Positions 33,788 to 55,143 of a DNA stretch of 64,000 nt are shown piece by piece. The number at the start of each line of letters is the position of its first letter. Position 1 is the first letter of the stretch. The position numbers were made by a program, and so were the translations under genes. Source of the stretch: Bryobacteraceae bacterium (lineage in GTDB: Bacteria; Acidobacteriota; Terriglobia; Bryobacterales; Bryobacteraceae); contig JAHCHE010000013.1 in the NCBI GenBank assembly GCA_026129905.1, positions 1 through 64,000 of the forward strand. Reading direction: 5' to 3'. Below the pieces are notes generated by a model. It did no database searches. It was not told the origin of the DNA and worked only from the letters and a program-made list of their open reading frames with translations.

Positions 33788-33837
33788 GTTCCCTATTAGA
33801 TCACGGCGTCCGGCGCGGTTCGACGCCAAGGGTTGTC

Positions 33838-34704: not shown

Positions 34705-34746
34705 TACTTACATGTTAAATGGCGCGGCGCGCAGCCGAGCGCCCGA

Positions 34747-35778: not shown

Positions 35779-36794
35779 CAGGCAACTCCTTTGGCGTGTC
35801 CGCCGTGGTTCGCCGGCCCGGTGGACTCGCGAACCACAAGCTCGGGAACTATCAGGATCTCTTGTTCGGCCGAGCCGCGGGGCTCCTTGCCGGTGAATGC
35901 CTCGAAGACGATCTGTCCGATGCGCCGGCGAGGGATGTTGGCGGTGGTCAGCGAGGGTACCACGAATTCGGCCAAATCGATGTTGTCGTAGCCGGTGACC
36001 GAGACGTCTTCGGGGACCCGCAGTCCCTGGTCGCGAAGTTCGCGGATCACGCCGATGGCCATGAAATCGTTTACACAAAGGATGGCGGTAGGGGCGAAGT
36101 TCGATTCGAGCAGCTCGTGCGCGGCTTGGCGGCCGCCACTGGGGCTGTCGGAACTCGTCACCGTGGTGGCTTCGACGCCCGCGAAGTCGCCGATGGTTCG
36201 CAGGAAGGTCGCTTCCCGTTCGCGAAGCGGTCCTAGCGCGGCGTGGTGTCCGACGAAGGCCATGCGGCGGTGCCCCAGCGAGTATAGGTACTCGACGCCG
36301 CGCTGCACGCCTTTTTCGTAACGCACGCGGATGTTGGTGATATTGTGGGCGGGCCGGCCGACATCGTAGAAGACGATCGGCAGCGCCTGGGCGGCGAGTT
36401 CTTCGATGAGGTAAGGCTCCATCTCGGACACCACGACCGCAAGGCCCGCGAGGCGCCTCCCGATCATGGAGCGAACCGCAGCCACGAGGCGCTCCGGGTC
36501 GTAGTCCGTGTTCTCGACCACGACTTCATAGCCGTTCTGCGCGGCAAGGTCTTCGAGGCTGCGAAAGATGTCGAGAAAGAAGGGATTTCCAATATTGGAG
36601 ACGATCATCCCCAGGGTACGGTTCTTGCCGCCGGCGAGAGTCCGGGCGTAGACGTTGGGGTGGTAGCGCAGTTCGCTCGCCGCCTGGAGCACGCGCTTGC
36701 GCGTCGCCTCGCTCACCACATCGATATTGTTGAGAACGCGGGAGGCGGTCGCGGTGGAAACGCGCGCGCGCTTAGCAACCTCTTCGAGAGTCAT
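35778..36794 (-). CDS. LacI-family transcriptional regulator
   Basis: 338 residues. N-terminal HTH TLEEVAKRARVSTATASRVL plus hinge helix RYHPNVYARTL, then the ribose-binding-protein-like sensor domain (TLGMIVSNIGNPFFLDIF, ILCVNDFMAIGVIREL, VSVTGYDNIDLAEF). Start at 36794 (ATG before TLEEVAKR) is chosen over the longer frame since LacI proteins begin there. Divergent from the GH42 gene 149 bases away, so it probably represses that operon until a galactoside-derived sugar is present. I found no clear LacI palindrome; CCCGC-N6-GCGGG at about 36897-36912 is the only dyad. Confidence 0.95.
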   Translation of the reverse strand: MTLEEVAKRARVSTATASRVLNNIDVVSEATRKRVLQAASELRYHPNVYARTLAGGKNRTLGMIVSNIGNPFFLDIFRSLEDLAAQNGYEVVVENTDYDPERLVAAVRSMIGRRLAGLAVVVSEMEPYLIEELAAQALPIVFYDVGRPAHNITNIRVRYEKGVQRGVEYLYSLGHRRMAFVGHHAALGPLREREATFLRTIGDFAGVEATTVTSSDSPSGGRQAAHELLESNFAPTAILCVNDFMAIGVIRELRDQGLRVPEDVSVTGYDNIDLAEFVVPSLTTANIPRRRIGQIVFEAFTGKEPRGSAEQEILIVPELVVRESTGPANHGGHAKGVA

Positions 36795-36942
36795 ACGTTT
36801 CGGTGCCCGCAGCGCGCATTCGGCGGCTCGGGCTGCCGGCAAGGGGCCGACCTTCGATTGTACTGTGAAGCAGCGGGCGTGCGTTGGCCTCAAAGTCCCG
36901 CAATTCCGCGGGTTAAGGACTCGTTCTATATTTATAGGGGCG

Positions 36943-39051
36943 ATGAGACCCTTGACTCTTCTCGTTTTGCTGCCGCTGGCGGCGGTGGCGCAACCGCCGA
37001 AGTTCGACGGGATTCTCTACGGCGCGTCGTACTACCACGAGTACATGCCGTCCGAGCGGCTGGAGAAGGACGTGGAGCTGATGCAGGCCGCGAAGCTCAG
37101 CGTCATGCGTCTCGGCGAATCGACCTGGAGCAGTTGGGAGCCGCGGGAAGGCGAGTTCCAGTTCGACTGGATGCAGCGCATACTCGACCGGCTGCACAAG
37201 GCGGGCATCAAGGCGATCCTCGGCACGCCCACGTACTCGATCCCGCCGTGGCTGTATCAGAAGCACCCGGAAATCGTGGTGAACCGCGCCGGCGCCGCGC
37301 AGCCGCTGGGCGAGGACCGTTATGAGCCGGCGTATCCCTGGCGCGTGCCGCCCGGCGGCTACGGCATCCGGCAGAACACCGACCTCACGCATCCGGTTTA
37401 CCGCTGGTATTCCGAGCGCATTATTCGCGCGGTGGTCTCCCGTTTCAAGGACCATCCGGCGGTGATCGGTTTTCAGGTGGATAATGAGACACATCCGAAC
37501 ATCTCAGCTTCGCGCAATATGCACGTCGATTTCGTCAATTATCTGAAAAGGAAATTCGGCGACGTCGCGACGCTGAACAGGATCTGGGGGTTCGTCTACT
37601 GGGGGCAACTGGTGAGCGGCTGGGACGACTTTCCGCCGCGGGAAGGCATCCTGAATCCGGGCTACAAACTCGAATGGGAGCGCTTTCAGCAGAACACGGT
37701 CACGGACTTCCTCGGCTGGCAGGCGAAGATCGTGCGCGAGTACAAGCGGCCGGACCAGTTCGTCACCCACAACTGGCCAGGCGGGGTGCGGACGCAAGTC
37801 AATCAGTACGAAGTCGCGCAGTTGTTGGACATTGTGGCCGTCAACCCCTATCACCCGGTGCAGGACCGCCTCGACGGCGAGTTCATCAGCTTCTGCGGCG
37901 ACTTGACGCGGTCGCAAAAGCAATCGAACTACCTGGTGACGGAGACGAACGCTCAGGCCATCGGCTGGGACTCGCGGACGCAGTTTCCGCCATACGACGG
38001 ACAACTCCGGCTGAACGCCTACAGCCATCTCGCCTCCGGCGCCAACATGGTGGCATACTGGCACTGGCACTCGCTGCATTACGGCCAGGAAACGTACTGG
38101 AAGGGCCTGCTATCCCACGACCTGGAGCCCAACCGCGTTTACAACGAAGCGGCTCGCATCGGTGCGGAGTTCCAGCGCATCGGCGGGCGCCTGGTGAATT
38201 TCCGGCAAAAGAACGAAATTGCGATTCTGTTGAGCCTGGATTCCTACCACGGCATTCAGTTCATGCCGTTCGACGATCGAGTGAATTATATGACGGTGCT
38301 CAACCAGATGTATCGGGCGTTGTACAACCTGAATGCGGGCGTGGATTTCATCTTCACGGAAAAGCCGGATTTCACAGGGTATCGCGTGGTGCTGGTTCCT
38401 CCGCTTTACATCGCCTCCGACGACCTGCTGCATAAGCTCGCCGCATACGTGGAAGGCGGCGGGCGGGTGGTGATGGCATTCAAGAGCGGCTTCGCCAACG
38501 AGTACTCGACGGTGCGTTGGGACAAGGCGCCGGGTCCGCTGCGCAAGGCCGCGGGCTTCTATTACCAGGAGTTCTCGACGCTCGCCGAGCCGCTCCCGCT
38601 GAAGGGCGACCCATTCTCCGCGGGCGCGGACAATCGCGTTTCGGTGTGGGCGGAGATGATCGTGCCGGAAACCGCCGAGATGCTGGCCTTTTACGATCAT
38701 CCGTTCTTCGGACGCTATCCGGCCATCACGCGCAACAAGTACGGCCGCGGGACGCTGACGTATGAAGGCGCTTACTTATCCGACGGGCTACAACGCAAGG
38801 TCGTGGCGCAGGCGATCGAGAACGCGGGGCTCGCCGGACCGGAACAGCGGCTGCCGTCGAAGGTACGGCTGAAGAGAGGCATAAGCAATAGGGGCAAGAC
38901 GATGCGGTACTTCTTGAACTACTCTGGAGAGACGCAGGAGTTCGAGAATCCGTATGGCGCCGGGCAGGAAGTCATCACCGGCCGCGCCGTGGCGGAGAAG
39001 CAAACGCTTGCACTGCCGCCGTGGGATCTGGCGATTGTCGAGGAGAAATAA
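36943..39051 (+). CDS. Secreted GH42-family beta-galactosidase
   Basis: 702 residues with signal peptide (MRPLTLLVLLPLAAVAQ). The TIM barrel starts GILYGASYYHEYMPSERLEK as in GH42; the acid/base Glu is in GFQVDNETH (about residue 187) and the nucleophile Glu in YLVTETNAQAIGW (about 335). The A-type barrel is followed by the class-I-amidotransferase-like trimerisation domain (PLYIASDDLLHKLAAYVEGG) and a small C-terminal beta domain. It releases galactose from beta-galactosides such as galactan oligomers, here exported. TATATT at 36927-36932 is a possible -10. Followed 4 bases later by an isomerase-like gene. Confidence 0.92.
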   Translation: MRPLTLLVLLPLAAVAQPPKFDGILYGASYYHEYMPSERLEKDVELMQAAKLSVMRLGESTWSSWEPREGEFQFDWMQRILDRLHKAGIKAILGTPTYSIPPWLYQKHPEIVVNRAGAAQPLGEDRYEPAYPWRVPPGGYGIRQNTDLTHPVYRWYSERIIRAVVSRFKDHPAVIGFQVDNETHPNISASRNMHVDFVNYLKRKFGDVATLNRIWGFVYWGQLVSGWDDFPPREGILNPGYKLEWERFQQNTVTDFLGWQAKIVREYKRPDQFVTHNWPGGVRTQVNQYEVAQLLDIVAVNPYHPVQDRLDGEFISFCGDLTRSQKQSNYLVTETNAQAIGWDSRTQFPPYDGQLRLNAYSHLASGANMVAYWHWHSLHYGQETYWKGLLSHDLEPNRVYNEAARIGAEFQRIGGRLVNFRQKNEIAILLSLDSYHGIQFMPFDDRVNYMTVLNQMYRALYNLNAGVDFIFTEKPDFTGYRVVLVPPLYIASDDLLHKLAAYVEGGGRVVMAFKSGFANEYSTVRWDKAPGPLRKAAGFYYQEFSTLAEPLPLKGDPFSAGADNRVSVWAEMIVPETAEMLAFYDHPFFGRYPAITRNKYGRGTLTYEGAYLSDGLQRKVVAQAIENAGLAGPEQRLPSKVRLKRGISNRGKTMRYFLNYSGETQEFENPYGAGQEVITGRAVAEKQTLALPPWDLAIVEEK

Positions 39052-39055
39052 ATAG

Positions 39056-40465
39056 ATGGATCAACAAATGACGTTCGGAGTAATCATAGGAAACCGAGGC
39101 TTCTTTCCGGATCATCTGGCCAAGTCAGGCCGCGAGGAGATGATCCGCGCGCTGGAAGCGGCCGGTTACGGCGTCGTGGCGCCGAGCCCGGAAGAGACCA
39201 AGTACGGCGCGGTGGAGACGCGCGAGGAAGCGAAACGGTGCGCCGCTTTGTTCGACGACCACCGCAAGACGATCGACGGCATCATCGTGTCGCTGCCGAA
39301 CTTCGGCGACGAGCGCGCGGTGGCGGAGACCATCCGCATGTCCAGGCTAAATGTTCCGGTGCTGATTCAAGCGACGCCAGACAGCGCCAGCCGAATGACA
39401 ATTCGTGACCGCCGGGACAGCTTCTGCGGCAAGATGTCGGTCTGCAACAACCTGACGCAGTACGGCATTCCTTATTCGCTGACGCGCCTGCATACGGTGG
39501 CGCCCGACAGCGAGGAGTTCCGGGAGGACCTGGCTTGGTTTGCCGGCGTCTGCCGCGTGGTCAACGGCCTGCGCAAGACGCGCATCGGCGCCATCGGCGC
39601 GCGCCCGGCGGCCTTCAACACGGTCCGCTACAGTGAGAAACTGCTCGAGGCGAGCGGGATTGATGTCGAAACGGTGGACCTGTCGGAGATACTCGGACGC
39701 ATCGGCCGGATGAAAGACGACGACCCGGCCGCGCAGGAGAAACTGCGGGCGATCCGCAGCTACGTCTCGACGCAGGGAATTCCCGAACCGAGCATGATCA
39801 AGATGGCGAAGCTCGCCGCAGTGGTTCATGGCTGGATGCAGGAGACGGGCGTGACCGTCAGCGCCGTCCAGTGCTGGACCGCGATCGAGGAATATTACGG
39901 CGTCGTTCCATGCACGGTGATGAGCATGATGAGCGACACGCTGATGCCGAGCGCCTGCGAAGTGGACGTGTGCGGCACGGTGGCCATGCACGCGCTGGCG
40001 CTGGCCTCCCAGACGCCGAGCGCGCTACTCGACTGGAACAACAACTACGGCGAGAACCCCGACAAGGCCGTCTGCTTCCATTGCAGCAACCTGCCTAAAC
40101 ACTTCTTCCAGAACGTGCGGATGGATTTTCAGGAGATCATCGCCGGCACGGTTGGCAAGGAAGGGACCTTCGGAACGATGGTGGGAAGGGTGAAATCGGG
40201 TCCAATGTCGTTCGCCCGCATTTCCACCAACGACCGACGGGGGACGATTTCGACCTATGTGGGCGAAGGGCGGTTTACGGACGATCCTCTGGAAACCTTC
40301 GGCGGCGCGGGCGTCGTTGAGATTCCGCGCATGCAGGAGTTGCTCCGCTACATCTGTGAGAACGGCTTCGAGCACCACGTCGCGGCGAACCTGTCGTCGG
40401 TGGCCGGCATCCTGGAGGAAAGCTTCCGCAAGTATATGCGGTGGGAGGTCCACCGACACAACTAG
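39056..40465 (+). CDS. L-fucose/L-arabinose isomerase-family protein
   Basis: 469 residues. FGVIIGNRGFFPDHLAKSGR begins an N-terminal Rossmann-like domain; TRIGAIGARPAAFNTVRYS starts the second; AVQCWTAIEEYYGVVPCTVM and ACEVDVCGTVAMHAL carry the Glu/Asp that bind the catalytic metal, and HCSNLPKHF the conserved His. This is the FucI/AraA-fold family. It starts 4 bases after the beta-galactosidase stop, so it should act on the released sugar or a derived ketose. Substrate (galactose, arabinose, fucose or a sulfosugar) cannot be decided from sequence. Confidence 0.85.
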   Translation: MDQQMTFGVIIGNRGFFPDHLAKSGREEMIRALEAAGYGVVAPSPEETKYGAVETREEAKRCAALFDDHRKTIDGIIVSLPNFGDERAVAETIRMSRLNVPVLIQATPDSASRMTIRDRRDSFCGKMSVCNNLTQYGIPYSLTRLHTVAPDSEEFREDLAWFAGVCRVVNGLRKTRIGAIGARPAAFNTVRYSEKLLEASGIDVETVDLSEILGRIGRMKDDDPAAQEKLRAIRSYVSTQGIPEPSMIKMAKLAAVVHGWMQETGVTVSAVQCWTAIEEYYGVVPCTVMSMMSDTLMPSACEVDVCGTVAMHALALASQTPSALLDWNNNYGENPDKAVCFHCSNLPKHFFQNVRMDFQEIIAGTVGKEGTFGTMVGRVKSGPMSFARISTNDRRGTISTYVGEGRFTDDPLETFGGAGVVEIPRMQELLRYICENGFEHHVAANLSSVAGILEESFRKYMRWEVHRHN

Positions 40466-40493
40466 CCCGGTTGCCGGCCGCGTCCCGGGGGGT

Positions 40494-40769
40494 TCAGCGG
40501 CGCTTCGCCGCCAACCGCGCTCTGACGGCGAGGTAGTGTTGGTCGAGCGCTTGCCGCAGCAAGGCCTTGATCAGCGCCTCGCGCGGCATACCCAGTTCGT
40601 CCGCAACCGCGTCCACTTCTTCCAACAGGGATTCGGTCAGGGACAACTCGACCCGGCGTACCTGTTCCGGGTTGGTTTTGCGGAAGAAACGCGGGAAAGT
40701 GCCGGACCGGACCGGCGGGTTCGCCGCCGATCCTTCCGTTGTCTTTGCCTTCTTGCCAGTAGCTTTCAT
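40494..40769 (-). CDS. Ribbon-helix-helix (CopG-like) protein
   Basis: 91 residues. Basic, disordered N-terminus (KKAKTTEGSAANPP) followed by RRVELSLTESLLEEVDAVAD and ELGMPREALIKALLRQALDQ, a strand-helix-helix DNA-binding unit of the CopG/Arc type. Possibly an antitoxin-like or plasmid-type regulator, but no toxin partner is adjacent. AGGAGG lies seven bases upstream of the ATG, an excellent ribosome site, which supports real expression. Confidence 0.75.
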   Translation of the reverse strand: MKATGKKAKTTEGSAANPPVRSGTFPRFFRKTNPEQVRRVELSLTESLLEEVDAVADELGMPREALIKALLRQALDQHYLAVRARLAAKRR

Positions 40770-40829
40770 GAAGCGCCTCCTGCAAAATGCGGCATCGAGT
40801 TTGGTTGCGACACGGGCGACGGGCTTGCG

Positions 40830-41564
40830 CTATTCGTAATCCTCATTGGGGGATTTCAGAAAGGCGGCGAGCGGGGCCTCGTCGGCCTCCACAAGGGCTA
40901 TGTGACGGATTTCGAGAGCCGGGTTGCGCAGCGACCCGGCCCTGGCCATGGCGGCGCCGCGGCGATAGAACGCGATGACATCCTCAACCGAGTCAAAGTG
41001 CCCGTTGTGCATATAAGGTTCGCCGTGCCCGAGGTCGCGCAATCCGGGCGTCTTGAACCGCGCGATGGCTTTTGCGAGCAGCAGGTCCGGGGCGCAGGCG
41101 GCCGCTCCAAAACCGGCGCCGCTAAGCCCGCCCAGCGCCTCGATCTGCTGCTCGACACAGAGAATGTGATAGATCCTCGTCTGCGGATCGGGGAAGTCGG
41201 GGGCAAAATCGTTATACGCGCGCATGCCGCCTCCCGGAGTATCGACATGCTCGTCTACCAGGTGGCACGAGCGGCAGTTGATGGTCCTGCCGGCGAACGG
41301 CCCCGGCAGGGGTTCGCCCGTGGTCTCGGTGGTCGCCACTACCGGATCCCCGGCTGGGACCGGCTCACTCACGCGTCCTCCGGCGTCCAGGTAAGCCTTG
41401 AACGCCTGCGCGAAGCGCGTCTCGAGAAACAGGCGTTCTCCGATCACCGTCTCCGGGGGGTCGTCGGCGTCATGGGGAAATGCAATCGCGCTGCAAAACA
41501 ATAACAGCGCGGGGGCGAGCCGGACTCTGAATCCGGCCGCGGAATACTTGTCGATCATGAACAT
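40830..41564 (-). CDS. Cytochrome c peroxidase/MauG-like protein, shortened
   Basis: 244 residues with signal peptide and CAGGAG before the ATG. GERLFLETRFAQAF and the haem site NCRSCH (about residue 97), followed by VDTPGGGMRAYNDFA, match the N-terminal di-haem peroxidase pattern; the C-terminal FKTPGLRDLGHGEPYMHNGHFDSVEDV is the family's second half. The part between (ILCVEQQIEALGG to AACAPD) is short and has no second CxxCH. Normal members are 330-450 residues with two haems. Either an internal deletion or an atypical mono-haem form. Located with RHH regulator and GH51 gene, no obvious partner. Confidence 0.75.
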   Translation of the reverse strand: MFMIDKYSAAGFRVRLAPALLLFCSAIAFPHDADDPPETVIGERLFLETRFAQAFKAYLDAGGRVSEPVPAGDPVVATTETTGEPLPGPFAGRTINCRSCHLVDEHVDTPGGGMRAYNDFAPDFPDPQTRIYHILCVEQQIEALGGLSGAGFGAAACAPDLLLAKAIARFKTPGLRDLGHGEPYMHNGHFDSVEDVIAFYRRGAAMARAGSLRNPALEIRHIALVEADEAPLAAFLKSPNEDYE

Positions 41565-41704
41565 TGTGCGTCTCCTGAGCCTGCACTACTTGACAATGAG
41601 TTTCAAGTACTGTCCAGAGTAGCAGAATTCCCGCCGGGAGTGAAGGGCCATTCATGCGGGCCGTACAAGGCGGCGCGGCGTGAAAACGAGGGGCGCCTTT
41701 CGCC

Positions 41705-43783
41705 CTACTCGGCGCGGCGAAACGCCAGTTCCACCAGCGAGTGCGGAGGGAAGGCGTAGCTCAACGCGCCGCCGCGCTGCTCGGCGGAGGCGCGGATGAT
41801 CCGTACTCGTTCCGGGGCGTCGGCCTCGTTGCGCGTCATGTAGTTGTCCCCCGTGACGGTCCGGACGGAAACCGGCCCGGCCGCAGCGAAGCCGCGCAAC
41901 TCGATGGCGGCCGTGAGCGCATCCTTCGGGCTGCGGTTGATTACGATCAATGTCAGTTCGTCGCCTCGGTCGTTCAGCAGCGCGACCGGATCGAGGACAG
42001 GCGTAGGGAGGTCTTTGGTTTCCGGAAGATAGTTCCCGGGAGAGCGGTACTCCGGCGCTTGAAGCTCGATTCTCGCGGGGTAGGCGCCGGACTGGGTTCC
42101 GTACAGCAGTGACGCGTAGTGAACGGGCGTGGCGAAGACAATCTCCCGCTGCTTGCGCAGGCCGCCACCGTGGTTCACCAGGGCGCTGTGCGTGATCATC
42201 TCGACCAAGTCGCCTTCGCGGATGGACATGTGGATGAGGCCCGCCAGGAACAGGGCTTCCGCCAGGCTGGAGTTGTTAGGCAGCGATTGCTTGCGGGTGA
42301 AGATCTGGGCTTCCGTCACCGCGAAGCTCGGCTTCACGCCCTCGTCCCGCATCAGGGCGGCGAGGCTGAACATCCTCTCGCGGAGAGCGAGCGGATAGGC
42401 CATCAGTTCCTCGAACACGCGGACCGGCGGCGCTCCCGGGTCGATGCTTCCCCCCGGCAGTTCGTGCATCGTCAGGGTGCGGACGATGGAAGGATGCGCT
42501 TTCAGCAGCGGCGTGGACCACTTCGGGTTCTGGCCGATGGCAAAAAAGTGGATGCCGGGATCGATGCGGCTCATCGCGGCATAGAAGGCCGCATAGCGTT
42601 CGGCGTATTCCTCGGCCGTGCAGTGCCCGATCTGCCAATCGCCATAGAGTTCGTTGCCGATTTCCCACAATTTCACGTTGTAGGGTTCGGGATGGCCGTT
42701 GGCGGCGCGCATCGCGCCGAATTTCGTGCCCGCGGCGCCGTTGCAGTACTCGACCCAGTTCGCCGCCTCGCGCGCCGAGCCGTTGCCGGCATTCACGCAG
42801 ATCATCGGCTCGCAACCAACCAGGCGGCATAGAGCCAGGTATTCGTCCGTCCCGACGTGATTCGGCTCGAAGTCGCCCCAGGCCGGGTTGCGCCGCGTGG
42901 GCCGTGTTTCGACGGGCCCGACGCCGTCCTCCCAGTGGTAGCCGGAGACGAAGTTGCCGCCGGGAAACCGCAACAGCGGCAGACGCGACTCGCGCAGGAG
43001 GCGAACGACGTCGGGATCGAAGCCCTCGACGTTGTCGCGCGGGAACATCGTTGCCTGGTCGAGCCAGACGTCGCCGGGCGAAGTCAGCTCGATCCGCAGG
43101 AGCAACGGGAGGCCGCGGGACTTGTCCCCGCCGAGCGCCAGCGTCACGGGATAGCGTCGCCAGTCCGCGCTCTGAACCGCAACGGAAGCGGCCGCCAGTT
43201 CGCGGTCCGGCGCCTGCACGCTGACGCGCAACGCGGCGTTGCCCCTGGCCTGAAACGCGAGGTCGTAGGTCCGCTCGCGGTGAAGCGGCAGGAAGACCGG
43301 CTGTTCGACGCCGGCGCCGCCCGAAACGTCAGCCGCAGTGATCCGCTGGCAGCGTTCGGAGTTGAAGGCGTTCGGATCCAGGGCGTAGGTCGCCTTCCCA
43401 TCCCCCCACGGCGCCCACCACGGAGCGACGTCAAGCCGAGGCGTCTTTTCGATCCGCAAGTGCGGGAACCGTTCGCGGAAACCGTTTTGCGTTGTCCAGC
43501 TAAAGACGCGGCCGCTCCCCTCGCCCATCAGCTCCCAGGACTCGAAGCTGGGATTCCGCAGGTTCTGCGCCCATAGTCCTTGGTAGACGTTCCACCAAAG
43601 GTGCTCGGTGAACTTGCCGAACAACCGGCGGGTGACGGGGCGTTCCGCGCGGGCGCCGGCGTCGATGAGAATCCGGCTCTGCTTCCCCGAGCCGGGCTGA
43701 AAGTCAAACAGCCCGGACTCGGCCTCAACCGAAGGAGCGATCAGCAGCAGCGCCACGAAAAAACAAGTTGCGCGTAATGACAT
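41705..43783 (-). CDS. Secreted alpha-L-arabinofuranosidase, GH51 family
   Basis: 692 residues. Signal peptide MSLRATCFFVALLLIAPSVEA; GGAG precedes the ATG at 43783. An N-terminal carbohydrate-binding-like sandwich (about 100-230) precedes the TIM barrel with FPGGNFVSGYHWEDGVGP, the acid/base Glu in LWEIGNELYGDWQIG (about 375) and the nucleophile region PSFAVTEAQIFTRKQ (about 490), then the C-terminal beta domain (TLIVINRSPKDALTAAIEL). It removes arabinose side chains from arabinan or arabinoxylan and complements the nearby beta-galactosidase for plant polysaccharide use. Confidence 0.93.
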   Translation of the reverse strand: MSLRATCFFVALLLIAPSVEAESGLFDFQPGSGKQSRILIDAGARAERPVTRRLFGKFTEHLWWNVYQGLWAQNLRNPSFESWELMGEGSGRVFSWTTQNGFRERFPHLRIEKTPRLDVAPWWAPWGDGKATYALDPNAFNSERCQRITAADVSGGAGVEQPVFLPLHRERTYDLAFQARGNAALRVSVQAPDRELAAASVAVQSADWRRYPVTLALGGDKSRGLPLLLRIELTSPGDVWLDQATMFPRDNVEGFDPDVVRLLRESRLPLLRFPGGNFVSGYHWEDGVGPVETRPTRRNPAWGDFEPNHVGTDEYLALCRLVGCEPMICVNAGNGSAREAANWVEYCNGAAGTKFGAMRAANGHPEPYNVKLWEIGNELYGDWQIGHCTAEEYAERYAAFYAAMSRIDPGIHFFAIGQNPKWSTPLLKAHPSIVRTLTMHELPGGSIDPGAPPVRVFEELMAYPLALRERMFSLAALMRDEGVKPSFAVTEAQIFTRKQSLPNNSSLAEALFLAGLIHMSIREGDLVEMITHSALVNHGGGLRKQREIVFATPVHYASLLYGTQSGAYPARIELQAPEYRSPGNYLPETKDLPTPVLDPVALLNDRGDELTLIVINRSPKDALTAAIELRGFAAAGPVSVRTVTGDNYMTRNEADAPERVRIIRASAEQRGGALSYAFPPHSLVELAFRRAE

Positions 43784-43884
43784 TACTTCTCCGCTGACGA
43801 GCGGCTCACGCCGCTTTCGCTCCGTCAATGATATCGGACTGGCGCCGCGTGGGGTTACAATTGGGGCAAGAGAGGGGAAACCAC

Positions 43885-45686: not shown

Positions 45687-47774
45687 TCAAGGTTCGGCAA
45701 TTTGCCGGAGCGCCCGCTCCGTGGCCTCCAGCAGCGCTTCCGGACCCACCGGCGCGCCGGTGGCGCCTTTCATCCACACGTCCGGCGCGAGCCGCCCCTG
45801 ACGGCTGACGCGCTCGATCTCCGGGCCCACTTTACCCACCTTGCGGATGTGCTCCTCCAGTTGATGGGCGATGAGGTGGCCGATCGGATAGTCCGGCAGG
45901 TACAGGTACCGTTCGATCATGTGCGAGTAGATGCCGAGCAGGGTAACGTCCCGCTGCTTGAAGACTGGAGCGTAGTAACGGTTCCAGGTGTCCTTGGCGA
46001 TGCCGACAACGGCTTCGCGGAGTTGAGCGGGCGTCGCGTCCGGATGGTCGTACATCCAGTGCCAGACGGCCATGTCCACCAGCGCAACGCCGGCGATTTC
46101 GTACGTGCCCCAATAGACGTTCAGGGTACGCAGCGCCTCGTCGCGCGCGTCCGGCTTGCGCAGGCCGAGCAGTTCCAGGTCGCGCGCCTGAAACACGAAG
46201 GCGATGGCCTCGGTGAAGGCGGTGTTGGGCACGCCGTTGAGCAGCCAGTGGTCGATGGTCTTGAGGGAGAACGTCTGCTCGACGTTGTGGCCCATCTCGT
46301 GGACGGCGATGTTGTAGCCCTTGTAGTCCATGCCGGTGGGCGCGACGCGCGTCCGCAGATGAGCCGGGGCGGAGCGCAGTTGGGCGCCCCAGGCATGGCC
46401 GGAACCCCGCGCGGGATCGACGATGATGTTGCGGGCCAGAAACCGCGCCTTCTCCTGGTCGAAGCCGAGCGCCTCAAACATGCGCGGCATGTCCTTTTCG
46501 TACGCTTCGGGCGTGGGGTAGCGCTCGCGCGTGATCTCGTCGAGCTGCGCTTCCGTATACTCGCCGCGCGGCCTGAAACCGGCATACCAGATGTCGAACG
46601 GCTCCAGTTCCCGGCCGAGCCGCTGCCGGATCAGCGCCGCCACTTTCGGCGCGAGCGGCGAGGTGAGCACGCGCTCGAACATTCCGCGCACGCGCTCCTC
46701 GGGCAGCTCCCGGCCTTCGTCAAAGACGCGTGCGATGTGCGTCGGGGCGGTCGGGGAGTACGGGTCGATACGCTTGAGCGCGCGGTAGGTCCCAAGCAGC
46801 ATGGCGTAGCGGGTGTCCGGCTCGCGCGCGCCGTCGGGCTTGACGCTGCTGCGAGGCGAGTCCTCATAGTCGCGAACGTCGGAGACCCGCACCGCATTGG
46901 CATACGGGTTCCAGTCGACCGCGGGATTGTCGATCACGGCCTCGGGGATGGTCTGGCGCACGATGTGGTCCATCACGCGCACGATCGTCTTCTGGCGCGG
47001 CAACCCGTCGCTCTCGCCGTAATCGGCCTTGATCTGGTCGCGAAGGTTCCAATGCGACAGCAGGCGCATCTTTGCGGGGAAGAGCCGCCGCCCGCTGTCG
47101 TCGAGGAGGTGGTGCATCCAGATGTTGTATTCGGAGATGTACTGCTCAGCCTTCGAGCCAGCCTCCGACACGGCCTGGTAGACGGGGGCCGGCACGCGCT
47201 TGGAGAACTGCTCGGCCAGGCGCGCTTCCGCCCATTGGCGGCGGCTCCAGTTGGGACCGTCGGTCAGCCGCTGCTCGAGCGTGGTCAGCGGAAAATTCAG
47301 CAGGACGACAAAGGCAAGCTTGTTCTGAAAGAAATCGTCGATGGCGTGGGCGGAAGGATCGTAAGCGGCGAAGATCTCATCGTACGGCTGGATGGGGCCG
47401 AGATCGAGATCCATCTGCTTGCGGAAGGCCAGCATGATCTCGAGCATGTGCCCGTCGTACTGTTCCAGCAGTTCTTCGTAGCGGGCGAAGAGCGTGTCCA
47501 GCGCTTTCTGATCGCCCACGAAGTTGCGCCGCACGAACTCCTCGTACACGGCCACGTCGCCGTCCTCGTCTGTCCAGAAACCGGACGTCTGCTTCAACCC
47601 CTGCGCGATGCGTGCGCGCTGCGATTCGCCGTGCCGGGCCGCCAATTCCCCGGCGAGCTTTTCCACCGATGCCTCGAGCCACATGGGTCGAGCCGCCTCC
47701 TGCGCGGCGAGCGGCGCCGCCAGCAACGCCCCCGCCATCGCCAATCCCGCGCCAATCGCATCTCGTACGCGCAT
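45687..47774 (-). CDS. Secreted gluzincin metallopeptidase, M3-like
   Basis: 695 residues. Signal peptide (GAGLAMAGALLAAPLAAQ). All-helical body with one clear zinc site YNIAVHEMGHNVEQTFSL (HExxH-like HEMGH, about residue 500) and the downstream Glu probably in NTAFTEAIAFVFQARDLELL, the M3/oligoendopeptidase arrangement. The reading VLLNFPLTTLEQRL near 145 is found in secreted M3-like peptidases of gut and soil bacteria, as far as I recall. It starts 4 bases from the stop of the upstream paralogue, so the three genes 51514-45687 form one transcript. Substrate unknown. Confidence 0.8.
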   Translation of the reverse strand: MRVRDAIGAGLAMAGALLAAPLAAQEAARPMWLEASVEKLAGELAARHGESQRARIAQGLKQTSGFWTDEDGDVAVYEEFVRRNFVGDQKALDTLFARYEELLEQYDGHMLEIMLAFRKQMDLDLGPIQPYDEIFAAYDPSAHAIDDFFQNKLAFVVLLNFPLTTLEQRLTDGPNWSRRQWAEARLAEQFSKRVPAPVYQAVSEAGSKAEQYISEYNIWMHHLLDDSGRRLFPAKMRLLSHWNLRDQIKADYGESDGLPRQKTIVRVMDHIVRQTIPEAVIDNPAVDWNPYANAVRVSDVRDYEDSPRSSVKPDGAREPDTRYAMLLGTYRALKRIDPYSPTAPTHIARVFDEGRELPEERVRGMFERVLTSPLAPKVAALIRQRLGRELEPFDIWYAGFRPRGEYTEAQLDEITRERYPTPEAYEKDMPRMFEALGFDQEKARFLARNIIVDPARGSGHAWGAQLRSAPAHLRTRVAPTGMDYKGYNIAVHEMGHNVEQTFSLKTIDHWLLNGVPNTAFTEAIAFVFQARDLELLGLRKPDARDEALRTLNVYWGTYEIAGVALVDMAVWHWMYDHPDATPAQLREAVVGIAKDTWNRYYAPVFKQRDVTLLGIYSHMIERYLYLPDYPIGHLIAHQLEEHIRKVGKVGPEIERVSRQGRLAPDVWMKGATGAPVGPEALLEATERALRQIAEP

Positions 47775-47777
47775 AAC

Positions 47778-49637
47778 TCAATTCTGTCGCATCCAGCCGC
47801 GGTCCCACGGTTGCGCCAGCGTGGGCTGGTTGGCGTAGCGCTTCATCCGGAATTCGAGGCGCGCGCCGGCGCCGGGCTCCAGGCGCACCGTTGCGTAGGG
47901 CCGGTCAAGCGCGACTTCGTTCCCGTTCACCGACGCCGACAGAAACTGGTGTTCGCCGTACCCGCCGGCCTGCACCACCACGCTGATCGGCCGCACCGGG
48001 TCCGTGTTTACCAGCGTCACGCCGACCGAGTCCGCCGTCAGCTTGTCGACCAGGGCGCCGAGGCTTTCCGGAGGCCCGCTGCGCCGCCGGTCGGGATCGA
48101 AGTAGCGCAAGCGGCTGTTCAGCATCCACAGCTTGCCGCCGGAGAAATAGCCACCGAGCATGAGTTGGGTCAGCGTGTCGGTCTGCGCCGGGTTCATGCC
48201 GAGCAGGTAGTCGGCAAGCCGGGTGCCGGGCGAGGTCGGATCGGTGCGCATCTCCTCGACGTTGGCGCGGATCCGCTCGAAATCCTGCTGCAAGGCCTTC
48301 GCCGGGTAGTCCGGCTCCTGGCCCTCGAGGAAGCCGATCCAACCGCGCTTCGGGATACGATCGAGGTCGGCGCGGTTCATCGACCAGAGGTAGATCTCGG
48401 TCAGCCGGTCCGTGCGGAGGTTGGGAGTGAAGTGGTACCACTCCTCGCGCCCGGTGTACTTGTAGCCCCGCGGGTCGCCGAACATCTGCGGCAACAGGGT
48501 CTTGCCGCCTTCTTCTTTTTTCTGCGCGTATATATTGTCCATCTGGCGGCGGAGGACGTCGATATAGCCTTGGTCGCCGGTCAGCAGCAGCGCGTTGGCA
48601 AACCCCGGAAAGGCGCCGGCGTCCCAGGTGTTGCGCGAGGCGATCTGCTCGAGTTCGCCGTCGTAGATGGTGAAGTTCCACCCGTACGTGCCTTTGTACC
48701 AGCGGCCTCCGTATTCGCCGCCGGGCGCGCCGTCGAGGCCGACATTGGTCGGGATATTGCCGCCGGTGGCCGCTGTCCGTTCCTTCCAGGCATTGACGTA
48801 TTCGATGACCCAGTTCTTGTATTTCGGATCTCCGGTCAACATATAGGCGTTGGTGGCCAGAATTGTAGTTCCCATATTGAGCGGATGGTCGCCGACGCTG
48901 TCCAGGTATTCCGCGCAATGCGCCAGCATTTTCGGGTAATAGGTCATCAGGTCGAGCATCTTGCCGCGGCCGGCGGGATTGTGCAGCAGGTGAAATCGGC
49001 CGGGCACGGGATCGCCGACCCAATCGTAGGTGGTGGCTTTCCGCATCATGGGACCCTTGCTGCCCGTCCAAAGGCTTTTGATCAGCTTGCGTTGCGGATC
49101 GTAGTTCGGCGCCTCGGGATCCTCGTTCATGTACAAGCCGGCGAACCGGGTCATGCGCGCGATGAGCTTTTCGTCCTTCGGATCGGAGAGCCCCTGGAGA
49201 AAGAAAGCGCGGAGCCCCTCGCCGGTGTGGAACCAATCGGATTGCGTGATGAACTCGTTGAAGTAGGCGCCGTCTTTGGCCAGCTCTGTCTTCACCGTCC
49301 GAAGTTCGGCATACTGAGCAAGGTGGCCGTCATACGCCTTTCGCCACATGTCGAGCAGCGAGTCCTTGCCGCCGAGAGCGTGCAGCAGCGTCCAGTTGAA
49401 AAACGTCTCGACCGCGTCGTCGGGCCCGTCGAGCGTGCCCCAGCGCGGCGTGTGCAGCAGGTAGCCGCGCGAGTCCACGTACTTGTCGTAGAAGCGTTCG
49501 CAAGCGGCGGAATTGGCTCGCAAAAGCTCCTGCTCCAACAACGCCCAGGCAGGCGGCTTCATCGGCGTCTCGATTCGCAGATCGGCCGAGCAAGCGGCCA
49601 GCGCGGAGGCTAACAAGATACCAAAGGCTTTCGGCAT
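47778..49637 (-). CDS. Secreted protein of unknown function, tandem paralogue A
   Basis: 619 residues, highly similar along its whole length to the next gene upstream (I estimate roughly three quarters identical). Signal sequence MPKAFGILLASALAACS ends in a possible lipobox (LAAC). The body is helical and rich in aromatic motifs: MKPPAWALLEQELLRAN, FNWTLLHALGG, GRWYKGTYGWNFTIYDGEL, IPKRGWIGFLEGQ. The helix pattern suggests an (alpha/alpha)6 toroid as in polysaccharide lyases and glycosidases, but I cannot name catalytic residues. A C-terminal beta domain starts near 520. AAGGAAGG precedes the ATG at 49637. Confidence 0.8.
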   Translation of the reverse strand: MPKAFGILLASALAACSADLRIETPMKPPAWALLEQELLRANSAACERFYDKYVDSRGYLLHTPRWGTLDGPDDAVETFFNWTLLHALGGKDSLLDMWRKAYDGHLAQYAELRTVKTELAKDGAYFNEFITQSDWFHTGEGLRAFFLQGLSDPKDEKLIARMTRFAGLYMNEDPEAPNYDPQRKLIKSLWTGSKGPMMRKATTYDWVGDPVPGRFHLLHNPAGRGKMLDLMTYYPKMLAHCAEYLDSVGDHPLNMGTTILATNAYMLTGDPKYKNWVIEYVNAWKERTAATGGNIPTNVGLDGAPGGEYGGRWYKGTYGWNFTIYDGELEQIASRNTWDAGAFPGFANALLLTGDQGYIDVLRRQMDNIYAQKKEEGGKTLLPQMFGDPRGYKYTGREEWYHFTPNLRTDRLTEIYLWSMNRADLDRIPKRGWIGFLEGQEPDYPAKALQQDFERIRANVEEMRTDPTSPGTRLADYLLGMNPAQTDTLTQLMLGGYFSGGKLWMLNSRLRYFDPDRRRSGPPESLGALVDKLTADSVGVTLVNTDPVRPISVVVQAGGYGEHQFLSASVNGNEVALDRPYATVRLEPGAGARLEFRMKRYANQPTLAQPWDRGWMRQN

Positions 49638-49651
49638 GATTCCTTCCTTTA

Positions 49652-51514
49652 TTAACGCGCCCACGGAAACGCCAGCGTCGGCTGGTTGGCGTAGCGCTTC
49701 ATCTTAAATTCCACGCGCGCGCCGCAGCCGGGCTCCAGCCGCACCGCCACGTACGCTTGGTTAACAGGCTGTTCCTTGCCGTTAACCGACGCGGACAGCA
49801 ACTGGTGCTCCGCATAGGCGCCTCCCTGGACGATGACGTTGATCGGGTTCACCGCGTCCGTGTTCACCAGCGTGACCGCCGCCGAGTCGTCGGCGAGTTT
49901 CTCCACCAGCGCGCCCATGCTCTCCGGCGGTCCGGCGCGGCGCCGGTCCGGATCGAAGTAGCGGAAGCGGCTGTGCAGCATCCAGACCCGTCCGTTGGCG
50001 AAATAGCCCCCCAGCATGAGGTTGGTGAGCGCGTCCGTCTCGGCCGGGCTGAAGCCCAGCAGGTAGTCGGCCAGCCGCGTGCCGGGCGAGGTGGGGTCGG
50101 TGCGCATCTGCTCGACGTTGCGGCGGAGGCGTTCGAAATCGGCTTCGAGCGCCGTTATCGGGTATTCGGGCGCCTCGCCCTCCAGGAAGCCGATCCAGCC
50201 TCGTTTGGGAATCCGATCGAGGTCCTTGCGGTTCATCGACCAGAGATAGATTTCCGTCAGCCGGTCGATGAAGAGGTTCGGCGTGTAGTGGTACCACTCT
50301 TCGCGCCCCGAGTATTTGTAACCGCGAGGATCGCCGAACATCTGCGGCAATAGAGTCTTGCCGCCTTCCTCCTTCTTATGCGCGTAAATGTTGTCCAGTT
50401 GCCGGCGAAGGACGTCGACGTACGACTGGTCGCCGGTGACCAGCAGCGCGTTCGAGAATCCGGGCCAGGAACCGGCGGTGAAGTAGTTGCGATGCGCGAT
50501 CTGTTCGAGTTCGCCGTCGAAGATGGTGAAATTCCAGCCGTAGGTTCCTTTGTACCAACGGCCGCCGTATTCCCCGCCCGGCTTGCCGTCCAGGCCGATG
50601 TTGCTCGGAATGTTGCCGCCGGTGGCCGCGGTGCGCTCCTTCCAAGCGTTGACGTACTCCACCAGCCAGTCCTTGTACTTGCGTTCCCCGGTGAGCATGT
50701 AGGCGTTGGCGTGCAGCAGGGTGGCCGCCAGATTAAGACTGTTGTCGCCCACGCTGTCCAGGTATTCCGTGCAGTGGGCCAGCATCTTGGGATAGTAGGT
50801 CATCAAGTCGAGCATTTTGCCGCGGCCCGCGGGATTGTGCAGCAGGTGGAATCGTCCTGGAACGGGATCGCCCACCCAATCGTAGACGGTGGCCTTCCGC
50901 ATCATCGGACCTGTGCTGCCGTTCCAGATGCTCTTGATGATTTTATGAACCGGGTCGTAGTTGGGAGCTTCCGGGTCCTCGTTCATGTAAAGGCCGGCGA
51001 AGCGCTTCATCCGAGTGACGAGCTTTTCGTCTTCGGGATCGGAGAGCCCCTGGAGAAAGAATGCGCGCAGTCCCTCGGCGGTGTGGAACCAGTCGGACTG
51101 GGTGATGAACTCGTTGAAATAGGCCCCGTTCCTGGCCAGCTCCGTCTTCACCGTCCGGATTTCGGAGTACTGCAGCAGGTGGCCGTCGTAAGCCTTGCGC
51201 CACATGTCGAGCAGGGAATCGTTGCCGCCGAGAGCGTGCAGCAGCGTCCAGTTGAAAAAGGTTTCGACGGCGTCGTCGGGTCCGTCGAGCGTACCCCAGC
51301 GCGGCGTATGCAGCAGGTAGCCGCGCGCATCGACGTACTTGTCGTAGAAGCGTTCGCAGGCAGCCGAATTCGCCCGCAGAAGCTCCTGCTCCATTAGCGC
51401 CCAGACGGGCGGTTTCATCGGCGTGTTCACCAGCACCGTGACGTCGTTCGCCATCAGCGCCGGAGCGACCGCCAGCGCCGCCCAGAGCAACGACGCATGT
51501 CTGGATCCGAGCAT
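49652..51514 (-). CDS. Secreted protein of unknown function, tandem paralogue B
   Basis: 620 residues. Paralogue of the following gene, 14 bases apart. Signal peptide MLGSRHASLLWAALAVAPALMA without a lipobox Cys, so this copy should be soluble whereas the other may be a lipoprotein. Conserved blocks are the same (DWFHTAEGLRAFFLQGLSDP, GRFHLLHNPAGRGKMLDLM, WYHYTPNL). The C-terminal beta domain (VTLVNTDAVNPINVIVQGG) looks like the tail sandwich of helical-barrel glycosidases. Start at 51514 is supported by the signal peptide and GGGAGG 13 bases upstream. Promoter not identified. Confidence 0.8.
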   Translation of the reverse strand: MLGSRHASLLWAALAVAPALMANDVTVLVNTPMKPPVWALMEQELLRANSAACERFYDKYVDARGYLLHTPRWGTLDGPDDAVETFFNWTLLHALGGNDSLLDMWRKAYDGHLLQYSEIRTVKTELARNGAYFNEFITQSDWFHTAEGLRAFFLQGLSDPEDEKLVTRMKRFAGLYMNEDPEAPNYDPVHKIIKSIWNGSTGPMMRKATVYDWVGDPVPGRFHLLHNPAGRGKMLDLMTYYPKMLAHCTEYLDSVGDNSLNLAATLLHANAYMLTGERKYKDWLVEYVNAWKERTAATGGNIPSNIGLDGKPGGEYGGRWYKGTYGWNFTIFDGELEQIAHRNYFTAGSWPGFSNALLVTGDQSYVDVLRRQLDNIYAHKKEEGGKTLLPQMFGDPRGYKYSGREEWYHYTPNLFIDRLTEIYLWSMNRKDLDRIPKRGWIGFLEGEAPEYPITALEADFERLRRNVEQMRTDPTSPGTRLADYLLGFSPAETDALTNLMLGGYFANGRVWMLHSRFRYFDPDRRRAGPPESMGALVEKLADDSAAVTLVNTDAVNPINVIVQGGAYAEHQLLSASVNGKEQPVNQAYVAVRLEPGCGARVEFKMKRYANQPTLAFPWAR

Positions 51515-52617: not shown

Positions 52618-55143
52618 ATGCCAACGCCGTCGCCCTTGCGTGGCGCCGCCGCCGTGGTCCGGTTCGGACTCTGCCTCGTCGCCGTAAACCTGCTGGCGCC
52701 GCTCGCGGCCGCCCAGTGCTCCAATCCCTTCGTTGTACCCAACCAGAACTTCACTACCGGCACGCACAACTTTCCCGACAACAACGCCGTGAAGGCAAAC
52801 AGCGTCAGCATCAGCGGCAGCGCCAGCGTCACCTTTGTCGCCGGCAATTGCATCCAATTGAGCCCGGGCTTTCGCGCCACCGCCGGCACGGCGGCCACCA
52901 CCTTTCGCGCCTGGCTCCAGAACCCGCCCACGGCGGACTCCGCCTCGCCCTCCAGCGGCAGCGGCCTCACCCAGACGTTCACCTGGAAGGCCTCCAGTTC
53001 GCCGAGCTACACTAACCTGGCGGAGATGCAAGCTCTCTTCCATACCTCCGTCTCGTTCGCGAACGCCTGCTACATCCGCTACAACCGGACCGCGAACCGG
53101 CTGTACCTGAGGAACAACACGGACACAAGCTGGCTGGGCAACTTCGCGCCGGGGACCTCCGGCACGGCCAGCAACTCGCAGTGCAGCATTAGCGGCACGG
53201 GGGCGTCGGCGAGCGGCGTCGGCAACCAGCTTACGCTGACCGTTCCCGTTACGTTTCAGGCTTCGTTCTCCGGGACGAAGAACGACTATCTGTTCGCCCA
53301 GGACAACGCGGGGCTGACCTCCGGATGGCAGCCGAAGGGAACGTGGACGGTAGGGGCTGGGTCGAACCCGAAGACGACCATCACAACCAATCCAGCGAAC
53401 CTACAATTCAAGGTCGACGGCATTACGTACAATTCCCAGACCGACTTCTTCTGGACGCCCGGTAGTTCCCACACAATCCAGGTTCCCACATTCCAGGGAA
53501 CGGTCACTGCCCGCCGTATCTTCGATTACTGGTCGCCCAACCTAGGCAGGGCCGCGCGGTACAGGATCGCGGCGCCATCGTCTGCTACAACCTACACCGC
53601 AAACTTCAGCCCGCCCGTGGATACGACCCCGAAGATGCAGGGGCCAACTTGGCTCGAGGTCAACCTCAGCTACATGCCCTTTGATCACTACTACGACGAC
53701 GCCAGCCACATGGCAAGCCAGTACGGATTCCCTACCAGTTGCCCGGCCGGCTCCACGATTCGCGGTTGCTTCAAGACGGTCTTGGCCGACCTTCGACGCC
53801 AGGGAGTTTCCGGCGTCAGAATCTTCTTCGGCTTGTGCGGCGAAAGCGGATCCACGCCGCTTTCGGGATGTGCACTTCTGAACCCCACTCAGGGAGGAAC
53901 CTGGCGGAATGTTTCCGGCCCGCATGAACCGTGGAAAACGAACGTGGCAAATTTCTTTCGCGATGTCAGCGACGCCGATATCCAGAACATCATCCTCTCT
54001 CCAGCTCATCCGAGTTACCCTGTTTTCGCCGTGCCAAAATCGCAGACGACTACGCCCATGGGAAGCGACCTCGATGATCACTGCGACGACACACAGAACA
54101 CCGTTTATTTCAACCCAATGTCCCCGTTTGGGCGAAAGGCAGTCACCGTAAACGGTGAGATAGAGTACCGCCCGGTAGGCCAGGACCAGCCCTTCAACAG
54201 AGGCTACAACTGCGCGCCGATAAACCCCCATTTTGTGGGCTGGCAGCACCACTACGATGTTCTGGACTTTATGCTCTCGGCGGCCGCGCAGACGGAGGTT
54301 ACGCCCTCTGGGAAGCGATTCACCGTCTCCGAGCTGGATTTCGAGCAGGAACTGAACGTCATGAACTTTCCTGTGCTCGCGCGCTTTATCAATGACAATG
54401 CCCAGACAGACTCCGGCATATCTGCCGGCGGTCTCCAGGAGGATGTCGGTGACGCGCTCGGAGATCTTATGGCAAGTTATAACTTCGACCCTTTGCGAGT
54501 CACTTGGTCGGCGCCGTGGACAGGCGTCCAACAGGACGCGAGCTATCATGTCGAGGAGTTTGACTGTCCTAATGTCTGGGAAGACATGGCCCGGAACATG
54601 GGGATTGACCAGATTGCGTCCGCCATCAATGGCACTGCCATCGGCAAACCGAGCCCACCGTTCACTCCGTACCTGTCGCCCGGCCCGTCTACCGGCTACC
54701 TTCACTGCAAGGGCTCCTTCGTAGACATGCACGACATGCCGGGCTATGGTCCTCAGCGGACCATTCTTGACTTCCACGTTCGGCCGGAGCTCCATGGAGC
54801 GGGAGCCCCTCCTGGGGGGATGGTTCAGGGTGAGGCAAAAGCGGATTTCAATGCGATTCGCCATCACCTCTATCACGCGTGGGTGCGTCAGGATGCGATC
54901 GTGGTTTTGGGCGAAACCTGGAGCAATCCCAACTCAACCATACCGTGCGAGACAGGCCCTGCGGATGCCGCGAAAAACACGGTCGCGGGCTATAACGCGA
55001 GCCAACTCAAGGACGCCGGGCGCACCGTCATTTTCAGACCTTGGATGCAGTTACAACTGCCGTCCGGGATCTGTTTTACTTATCCGGACGACCAAAAGGT
55101 TAACTTTAACTGGCTGGGTCCGTACGGACCGGCAAATTTCTGA
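52618..55143 (+). CDS. Large secreted multidomain protein, possible hydrolase-fold C-terminus
   Basis: 841 residues. Signal peptide ends AAAQ. Residues about 40-95 (FTTGTHNFPDNNAVKANSVS, LSPGFRATAGT) are the small beta 'GPGF' stalk domain; about 100-250 is a second beta domain with Ser/Thr-rich strands; about 255-310 reads ITTNPANLQFKVDGITYNSQ like a PEGA-type sandwich. From about 340 the protein looks like a TIM barrel: QGPTWLEVNLSYMPFDHYYD, GVSGVRIFFGLCGE, and ELDFEQELNVMNF with acidic pairs usable as catalytic residues, ending in WLGPYGPANF. I cannot assign a GH family. GGGAG precedes the ATG. Confidence 0.7.
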   Translation: MPTPSPLRGAAAVVRFGLCLVAVNLLAPLAAAQCSNPFVVPNQNFTTGTHNFPDNNAVKANSVSISGSASVTFVAGNCIQLSPGFRATAGTAATTFRAWLQNPPTADSASPSSGSGLTQTFTWKASSSPSYTNLAEMQALFHTSVSFANACYIRYNRTANRLYLRNNTDTSWLGNFAPGTSGTASNSQCSISGTGASASGVGNQLTLTVPVTFQASFSGTKNDYLFAQDNAGLTSGWQPKGTWTVGAGSNPKTTITTNPANLQFKVDGITYNSQTDFFWTPGSSHTIQVPTFQGTVTARRIFDYWSPNLGRAARYRIAAPSSATTYTANFSPPVDTTPKMQGPTWLEVNLSYMPFDHYYDDASHMASQYGFPTSCPAGSTIRGCFKTVLADLRRQGVSGVRIFFGLCGESGSTPLSGCALLNPTQGGTWRNVSGPHEPWKTNVANFFRDVSDADIQNIILSPAHPSYPVFAVPKSQTTTPMGSDLDDHCDDTQNTVYFNPMSPFGRKAVTVNGEIEYRPVGQDQPFNRGYNCAPINPHFVGWQHHYDVLDFMLSAAAQTEVTPSGKRFTVSELDFEQELNVMNFPVLARFINDNAQTDSGISAGGLQEDVGDALGDLMASYNFDPLRVTWSAPWTGVQQDASYHVEEFDCPNVWEDMARNMGIDQIASAINGTAIGKPSPPFTPYLSPGPSTGYLHCKGSFVDMHDMPGYGPQRTILDFHVRPELHGAGAPPGGMVQGEAKADFNAIRHHLYHAWVRQDAIVVLGETWSNPNSTIPCETGPADAAKNTVAGYNASQLKDAGRTVIFRPWMQLQLPSGICFTYPDDQKVNFNWLGPYGPANF

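Follow-up and report, generated by a model that had tools for sequence, protein, structure and literature searches.

What are the two near-identical genes that stand beside a metallopeptidase-like gene in a 64,000-nucleotide stretch of DNA from a Bryobacteraceae bacterium (positions 1 to 64,000 of contig JAHCHE010000013.1, assembly GCA_026129905.1; here called the window), and do the three genes work together? An earlier note, made from the sequence of the window, had read them as a secreted three-gene system. We find that the twin genes, designated A1 and A2, belong to a genuine, widespread protein family without a name in the databases searched, here called family A. The explanation that we favor, with somewhat better than even confidence, is that the members of family A cleave uronic-acid oligosaccharides and form a new (alpha/alpha)6 family. 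The family-A gene was probably duplicated in the window, with the neighboring peptidase gene, M, as a bystander. The features are as follows.

A1, 49652..51514, minus strand: putative family-A enzyme of 620 amino acids, with a Sec-type signal peptide, a predicted (alpha/alpha)6 barrel (residues ∼36 to 510), and a predicted C-terminal beta domain (∼517 to 606).
A2, 47778..49637, minus strand: family-A paralogue of 619 amino acids, with a signal peptide that carries a nonconserved LAAC lipobox-like site.
M, 45687..47774, minus strand: metallopeptidase-like protein of 695 amino acids with HEMGH...TEAIA; in a comparison with the M2 and M3 profiles, it is nearer to M2 (angiotensin-converting enzyme [ACE] type).

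The earlier description of two near-twin secreted genes of about 620 residues, 14 bases apart, held, the two products being identical at 484 of 592 positions (82%), far above chance. The gap between A2 and M, given previously as 4 bases, is 3 bases. Over 589 codons, the nonsynonymous and synonymous divergences (dN and dS) are 0.115 and 0.78, respectively, which suggests that A1 and A2 are both under constraint. The sequence GGAGG precedes the ATG of A1. A 15-row tree first pairs A1 with A2 (88/96) and then joins them to a tandem at locus L006, one of two places elsewhere with tandem A copies. The other, G023:C80 (L132, 6243 to 10197), is a tandem on one strand whose two paralogues differ greatly, with 37% and 64% identity to A1.

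None of the proteins A1, A2, and M gave a Pfam or NCBIfam family above the cut-off. Relatives in the PDB were likewise not found by sequence, whether with A1 alone (best E value of 2.5), a 33-row profile (none), or a 26-row cross-phylum profile (best E value of 1.1). A Pfam scan of 33 and then 26 family-A members yielded weak matches only, chiefly to GH47 (6/33 and 3/26 members; best E value, 0.037) and GH127 (4/33 and 2/26 members; best E value, 0.0054). Literature searches, which covered passages of PMC3102087, PMC13260240, and PMC9726719 and listings of other papers, brought up no characterized family-A member. The family is nevertheless common. There are four copies in the window's genome and, with that genome counted, the family occurs in 54 of the 150 genomes sampled from the window's taxonomic family and in 4 of 199 genomes sampled across the phylum. 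A scan of GTDB contigs, from which the best 80 of 97 confirmed stretches were taken, gave 77 relative loci, some on short contigs. By title, these are largely Bryobacterales or other Acidobacteriota, with a few labeled Verrucomicrobia, Akkermansia, Acidimicrobiia, or Myxococcales; the scan also gave a copy with 40% identity in Mangrovibacterium lignilyticum. Copies at L013, L021, L036, L047, and L075, titled Acidimicrobiia, Myxococcales, or Akkermansia, are 45 to 69% identical to A1, and some of those labels may be wrong. A tblastn search of a plasmid collection returned 17 records, all with at least 80% query coverage and with 27 to 42% identity: 12 haloarchaeal, two from Streptomyces, and one each from Nonomuraea, Asticcacaulis, and Sphingobium. 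The annotation under these matches is "hypothetical protein" in 12 cases and no gene at all in 5. The copy of Natrinema SYSU A 869, where no gene is annotated, matched in two pieces and may be broken.

What kind of protein this is was approached through structure prediction. An AlphaFold2 (AF2) model built on the 33-row alignment (pLDDT of 87.9, pTM of 0.90) has a helical barrel and, after it, a beta domain. Foldseek gave 13 PDB matches with E values of 0.001 or lower (best, 1.1e-4), and TM-scores were at most 0.52 among the 50 matches listed. Structural re-alignment of those 50 gave Z values of 12.7 to 15.6, with AGE-type epimerases, GH88, GH76, AprG, and a few others represented, and most of the matches listed are sugar-active (alpha/alpha)6 enzymes (AGE-type epimerases, GH88, GH76, GH47, and GH127/146). 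Because the Z values are largely ties, they support the fold class and leave the closest family undecided. The model thus supports placement of family A in the (alpha/alpha)6 glycan-active fold class. The earlier note had proposed a probably glycan-active (alpha/alpha)6 family without known assignment, a proposal to be given up should a characterized family claim these proteins; no such assignment was found, and the family searches, model, and structural matches bear the proposal out. Its wider suggestion of activity on lipid or peptidoglycan found nothing to sustain it, as no result of the analysis pointed to either.

The 26-row alignment, which spans Acidobacteriota, Verrucomicrobia-labeled contigs, Bacteroidota, Alphaproteobacteria, one actinomycete, and haloarchaea, has nine invariant acids: D80, D81, E84, D141, E147, D187, D257, D521, and E569. 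Cysteine is absent from its invariant and 90%-conserved columns.

Several known families were weighed as a home for these proteins. Family A resembles GH88/GH105 in its predicted barrel (Z of 15.2 over 308 residues at 5.0 Å to a GH88 unsaturated glucuronyl hydrolase, the 15% identity being the highest listed) and in its uronic-acid context, a GH88 gene lying beside A in Mangrovibacterium, but it is more than 200 residues longer, with a C-terminal beta domain. GH88 and GH105 enzymes have two catalytic aspartates at the mouth of the barrel. Membership in PF07470 was rejected, with 1 of 26 members matching at an E value of 0.1 and P0002 scoring 12 bits versus a cut-off of 26.6. The GH127/GH146 beta-L-arabinofuranosidases are similar in length and matched in Foldseek (E value of 4e-4 for 3wre). 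Membership in PF07944 was also rejected, the weak matches given above not amounting to assignment and the window proteins P0001 and P0002 giving no match at E values up to 1. GH127/GH146 enzymes have a conserved Cys/Glu metal site, and the GH127 alignment made here has three invariant cysteines, whereas family A has no conserved cysteine and hence lacks that site. In hhalign comparisons, family A gave 1.8% with GH88 and 1.7% with GH127, compared with 81.7% over 87 columns for GH88 versus GH127 from the same alignments, which sets family A further from each of them than they are from each other. DUF2264, which we take to be equivalent to GH154, gave 0.3% with a DUF2264 side of only four sequences and no Pfam match at E values up to 1, and it was set aside. 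The GH76 alpha-1,6-mannanases and GH47 alpha-mannosidases share a helical-barrel fold (GH76 Z values of up to 14.9), but neither was assigned above the cut-off (for GH47, PF01532, P0002 scored 13.5 bits versus 22.9), and the genomic context of family A is uronic acid rather than mannan. No row for GH154, PL2, or PL22 appeared among the structural matches listed, which excludes nothing.

The top five structural Z values (15.3 to 15.6) all belong to AGE-type epimerases and isomerases, the highest covering 313 residues at 4.6 Å, which raises the alternative that A isomerizes or epimerizes uronates or other sugars without cleaving a glycosidic bond. The archaeal and actinomycete copies looked at have no signal peptide, which would fit such a role. 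However, AGE-type enzymes act on free sugars or reducing ends, Z differences of less than 1 are ties, here with GH88 and GH76 rows, identities are 5 to 11% among the matches listed, and the AGE-type alignments end at residue 541 at most, while A continues through its C-terminal beta domain. Leader peptides are present in the Bacteroidota, alphaproteobacterial, and most of the acidobacterial copies looked at, and A follows SusC and SusD in Mangrovibacterium. We consider an epimerase improbable.

The genomic context outside the Acidobacteriota is what points cleavage by family A toward uronic acids. In haloarchaeal plasmids, by counts made by eye from gene tables, a pectate lyase or GH28 gene lies in 8 of 12 stretches (L101, L102, L103, L106, L108, L109, L111, and L113, the pectate lyase of L108 being cut by the stretch edge), and all 12 have at least one gene for pectate lyase, GH28, a DHDPS-family protein, MR/MLE, UxaC, or mannonate dehydratase within 12 kb. 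The same context was found in none of 12 control halves of 25 kb each, taken from six 50-kb stretches on six of the same 12 plasmids, although two controls hold an unlabeled right-handed beta-helix protein, a fold common to pectinases. In Asticcacaulis, the start of A shares one base with an MFS gene, with kdgD adjoining on the other strand, and in Sphingobium, an MFS gene is directly upstream of A, with LysR and DHDPS genes nearby. The Nonomuraea copy has MR_MLE, DHDPS, PfkB, and sugar ABC genes as neighbors. Both Streptomyces copies have sugar ABC genes upstream, directly in one, which also has an amidohydrolase-2 gene downstream, and with an unassigned frame between in the other. The Mangrovibacterium run reads FecR, SusC, SusD, A, GH88, GntP permease, galactarate/altronate dehydratase, DHDPS, MOFRL kinase-type protein, and reductase. 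We take these neighbors together to be a picture of uronate and aldarate catabolism. The pectin cluster of Haloterrigena turkmenica, which has a separate PL2 protein, is described in PMC3102087; gene counting places the family-A gene of this organism a few genes from that cluster, with old and new locus tags unmatched.

The same context admits a second reading, in which the substrate of A is the 4,5-unsaturated uronyl end that pectate lyases or other lyases leave behind, as it is for GH88/GH105 enzymes, or in which A generates such ends itself as an exo-lyase. The pectate lyases near A in the eight haloarchaeal stretches would suit it, as would the place of GH88 among the nearest folds and the greater frequency of a GH88-profile match in genomes with A (53/54, versus 78/96 without A; P = 0.002, among the 150 genomes of the window's family). 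Subthreshold Pfam matches to Alginate_lyase, C5-epim_C, and GH88 (1 of 26 members each; E values of 0.07 to 0.1) might be added, but they are at chance level. Mangrovibacterium already has a GH88 gene beside A, the GH88 profile comparison is poor as described above, and the aldarate-type neighbor genes suggest a saturated hexuronate as the product. On this balance, action on unsaturated ends seems to us possible but rather unlikely.

Is cleavage of uronic-acid oligosaccharides also indicated in the phylum of the window? The context is strong outside the Acidobacteriota and weaker inside. The comparison set 42 A loci, each 14 kb or longer and including Mangrovibacterium and contigs with other labels, against 40 controls, which were 20-kb stretches of nine genomes that carry A. 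MFS genes (11/42 versus 0/40; P = 0.0003), amidohydrolase-2 genes (7/42 versus 0/40; P = 0.007), and HpcH/HpaI aldolase genes (5/42 versus 0/40; P = 0.03) were more frequent near A, and sulfatase genes less clearly so (6/42 versus 1/40; P = 0.06). TonB receptors (11/42 versus 12/40) and Gfo/Idh proteins (3/42 versus 3/40) were not enriched.

A number of observations weigh against our preferred explanation. The test loci themselves supplied all or part of the queries for MFS, amidohydrolase-2, and HpcH, and the P values are uncorrected for the 16 families tried, so that they flatter the enrichment. The enrichment comes largely from one subclade (L042, L046, L048, L066, L070, and kin), and the neighbors of acidobacterial A genes outside that subclade are mixed. 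MR_MLE was not enriched (7/42 versus 4/40), nor was the pooled core set (10/42 versus 5/40; P = 0.15), and pectate lyase was found in 0/42 loci and 0/40 controls with archaeal queries only. DHDPS, GH88, and GH28 genes each occur in at most 2 of the 42 loci, Mangrovibacterium among them. Among the 150 genomes, GH28 is present in 26/54 that have A and in 65/96 that do not (P = 0.024), and because that association is negative, GH28 co-occurrence was dropped as support. In the window's own genome, the copies on C67 and C26 had no uronate-type neighbor among 10 frames tested, their neighbors being unrelated, and the flank of A1 and A2 in the window had none among the frames tested. MFS, MR/MLE, and DHDPS are broad families, and Halocatena (L107) has a generic MR/MLE gene only. 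According to PMC9726719, pectinase-bearing haloarchaea did not grow on pectin in the tests made, which weakens inference of the substrate from context. Finally, the analysis gave no match of individual residues to a known catalytic site.

If family A does cleave uronic-acid oligosaccharides, where would it act? Of the 12 haloarchaeal copies, 10 were aligned, and none of these has a signal peptide, the start lying about a dozen residues before the conserved block, and none was seen in the three actinomycete copies, for which start codons were chosen by us. Leaders are twin-arginine-like in Asticcacaulis and Sphingobium and Sec-like in Mangrovibacterium, and most of the 37 placed N termini of other relatives are Sec-signal-peptide-like, with L050, L054, and L079 too short to judge. 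From these few independent cases, we infer that a cytosolic copy goes with an importer of oligosaccharides and an exported copy with an importer of monomers; the archaeal control stretches, too, commonly hold ABC genes. The enzyme would cleave short uronic-acid-containing oligosaccharides from one end, oligogalacturonides in haloarchaea and perhaps other uronides elsewhere, freeing a hexuronate monomer for a uronate-to-aldarate or 2-keto-3-deoxy pathway. In haloarchaea and actinomycetes, where it would be fed by an importer of oligosaccharides, its place would be the cytosol; in Asticcacaulis, Sphingobium, Mangrovibacterium, and some Acidobacteriota, where import of the monomer (by MFS or GntP) comes next, it would act outside the inner membrane. 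Catalysis would fall to invariant acids of the barrel, with D80, D81, D141, E147, and D257 as candidates.

A bolder form of the proposal is that family A founds a new carbohydrate-active enzyme family, with members as far apart as soil Acidobacteriota and haloarchaea, that carries out the final cleavage of oligosaccharides in the breakdown of uronic-acid polymers by a mechanism unlike those of GH88, GH28, GH4, and the known lyases, with a location that switches with the paired importer. We advance this tentatively, as less likely than not. The gene is present in haloarchaeal, actinomycete, alphaproteobacterial, and acidobacterial genomes, nameless where annotation was seen and frequently with genes of uronate catabolism as neighbors. 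An assigned activity would supply a step of pectin or uronide breakdown in soil and hypersaline settings, and it would give a testable annotation to a protein found in more than a third of the sampled genomes of the window's family.

It remains to ask whether M belongs with A1 and A2. The earlier note took the three genes as a unit in which an anchored and a released enzyme work with the peptidase, and the arrangement in the window, on one strand with gaps of 14 and 3 bases, invites that view. Across the 150 genomes, A is present in 7 of 9 M-bearing genomes (the window's own included) and in 47 of 141 without M (P = 0.011, with no correction for kinship). However, M was found at 0 of the 77 relative loci of A, some of them on short contigs, and in the other six genomes with both genes, A and M fall on separate contigs, of which some are short, so that they stand together only in the window's genome; these drafts already point away from an A-A-M order, which is not conserved. 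The split between anchored and released enzymes had rested on a lipobox-like cysteine in A2. The LAAC motif is indeed there, at residues 13 to 16, but of 37 relatives with a placeable N terminus (from 38 rows of the 77 loci, of which one had no start), only 1 shows a relaxed lipobox pattern, and both copies of the L006 tandem lack it. The split was rejected because that cysteine is not common to the relatives. M is therefore probably not part of a conserved system with A, and a three-gene secreted system strikes us as very improbable.

As for M itself, the HEMGH reported earlier was confirmed, and both it and the downstream TEAIA are conserved in relatives. In an hhalign comparison with M2 (40%; E value of 2.9e-4), HEMGH aligns over HELGH and TEAIA over HEAIG, giving the HExxH and downstream glutamate, while M versus M3 gave 0.4% and M2 versus M3 gave 10%. 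M differs from these families in giving no Pfam match to M2 (PF01401) or M3 at E values up to 1, and a single-sequence AF2 model had a pLDDT of 41.5. From its sequence, M is best described as an outlying M2-like (ACE-like) metallopeptidase. Elsewhere in the window's genome (G000:C28:75378-77087) there is a second frame that resembles M2 peptidases and contains a single in-frame TGA.

The flanks of the three genes hold two further features. At 32174 to 43828 of the window there is a plant-glycan gene run with fucose-isomerase-like proteins, a GH42 beta-galactosidase, and an arabinofuranosidase-like gene, these lying 4 to 14 kb from A2; the run fits plant-type glycans and not uronate specifically. 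At 52618 to 55143 is a gene for an 841-amino-acid protein that has no Pfam family above the cut-off and, by NCBIfam, a 3-coathanger stack (GCX_COOH) domain.

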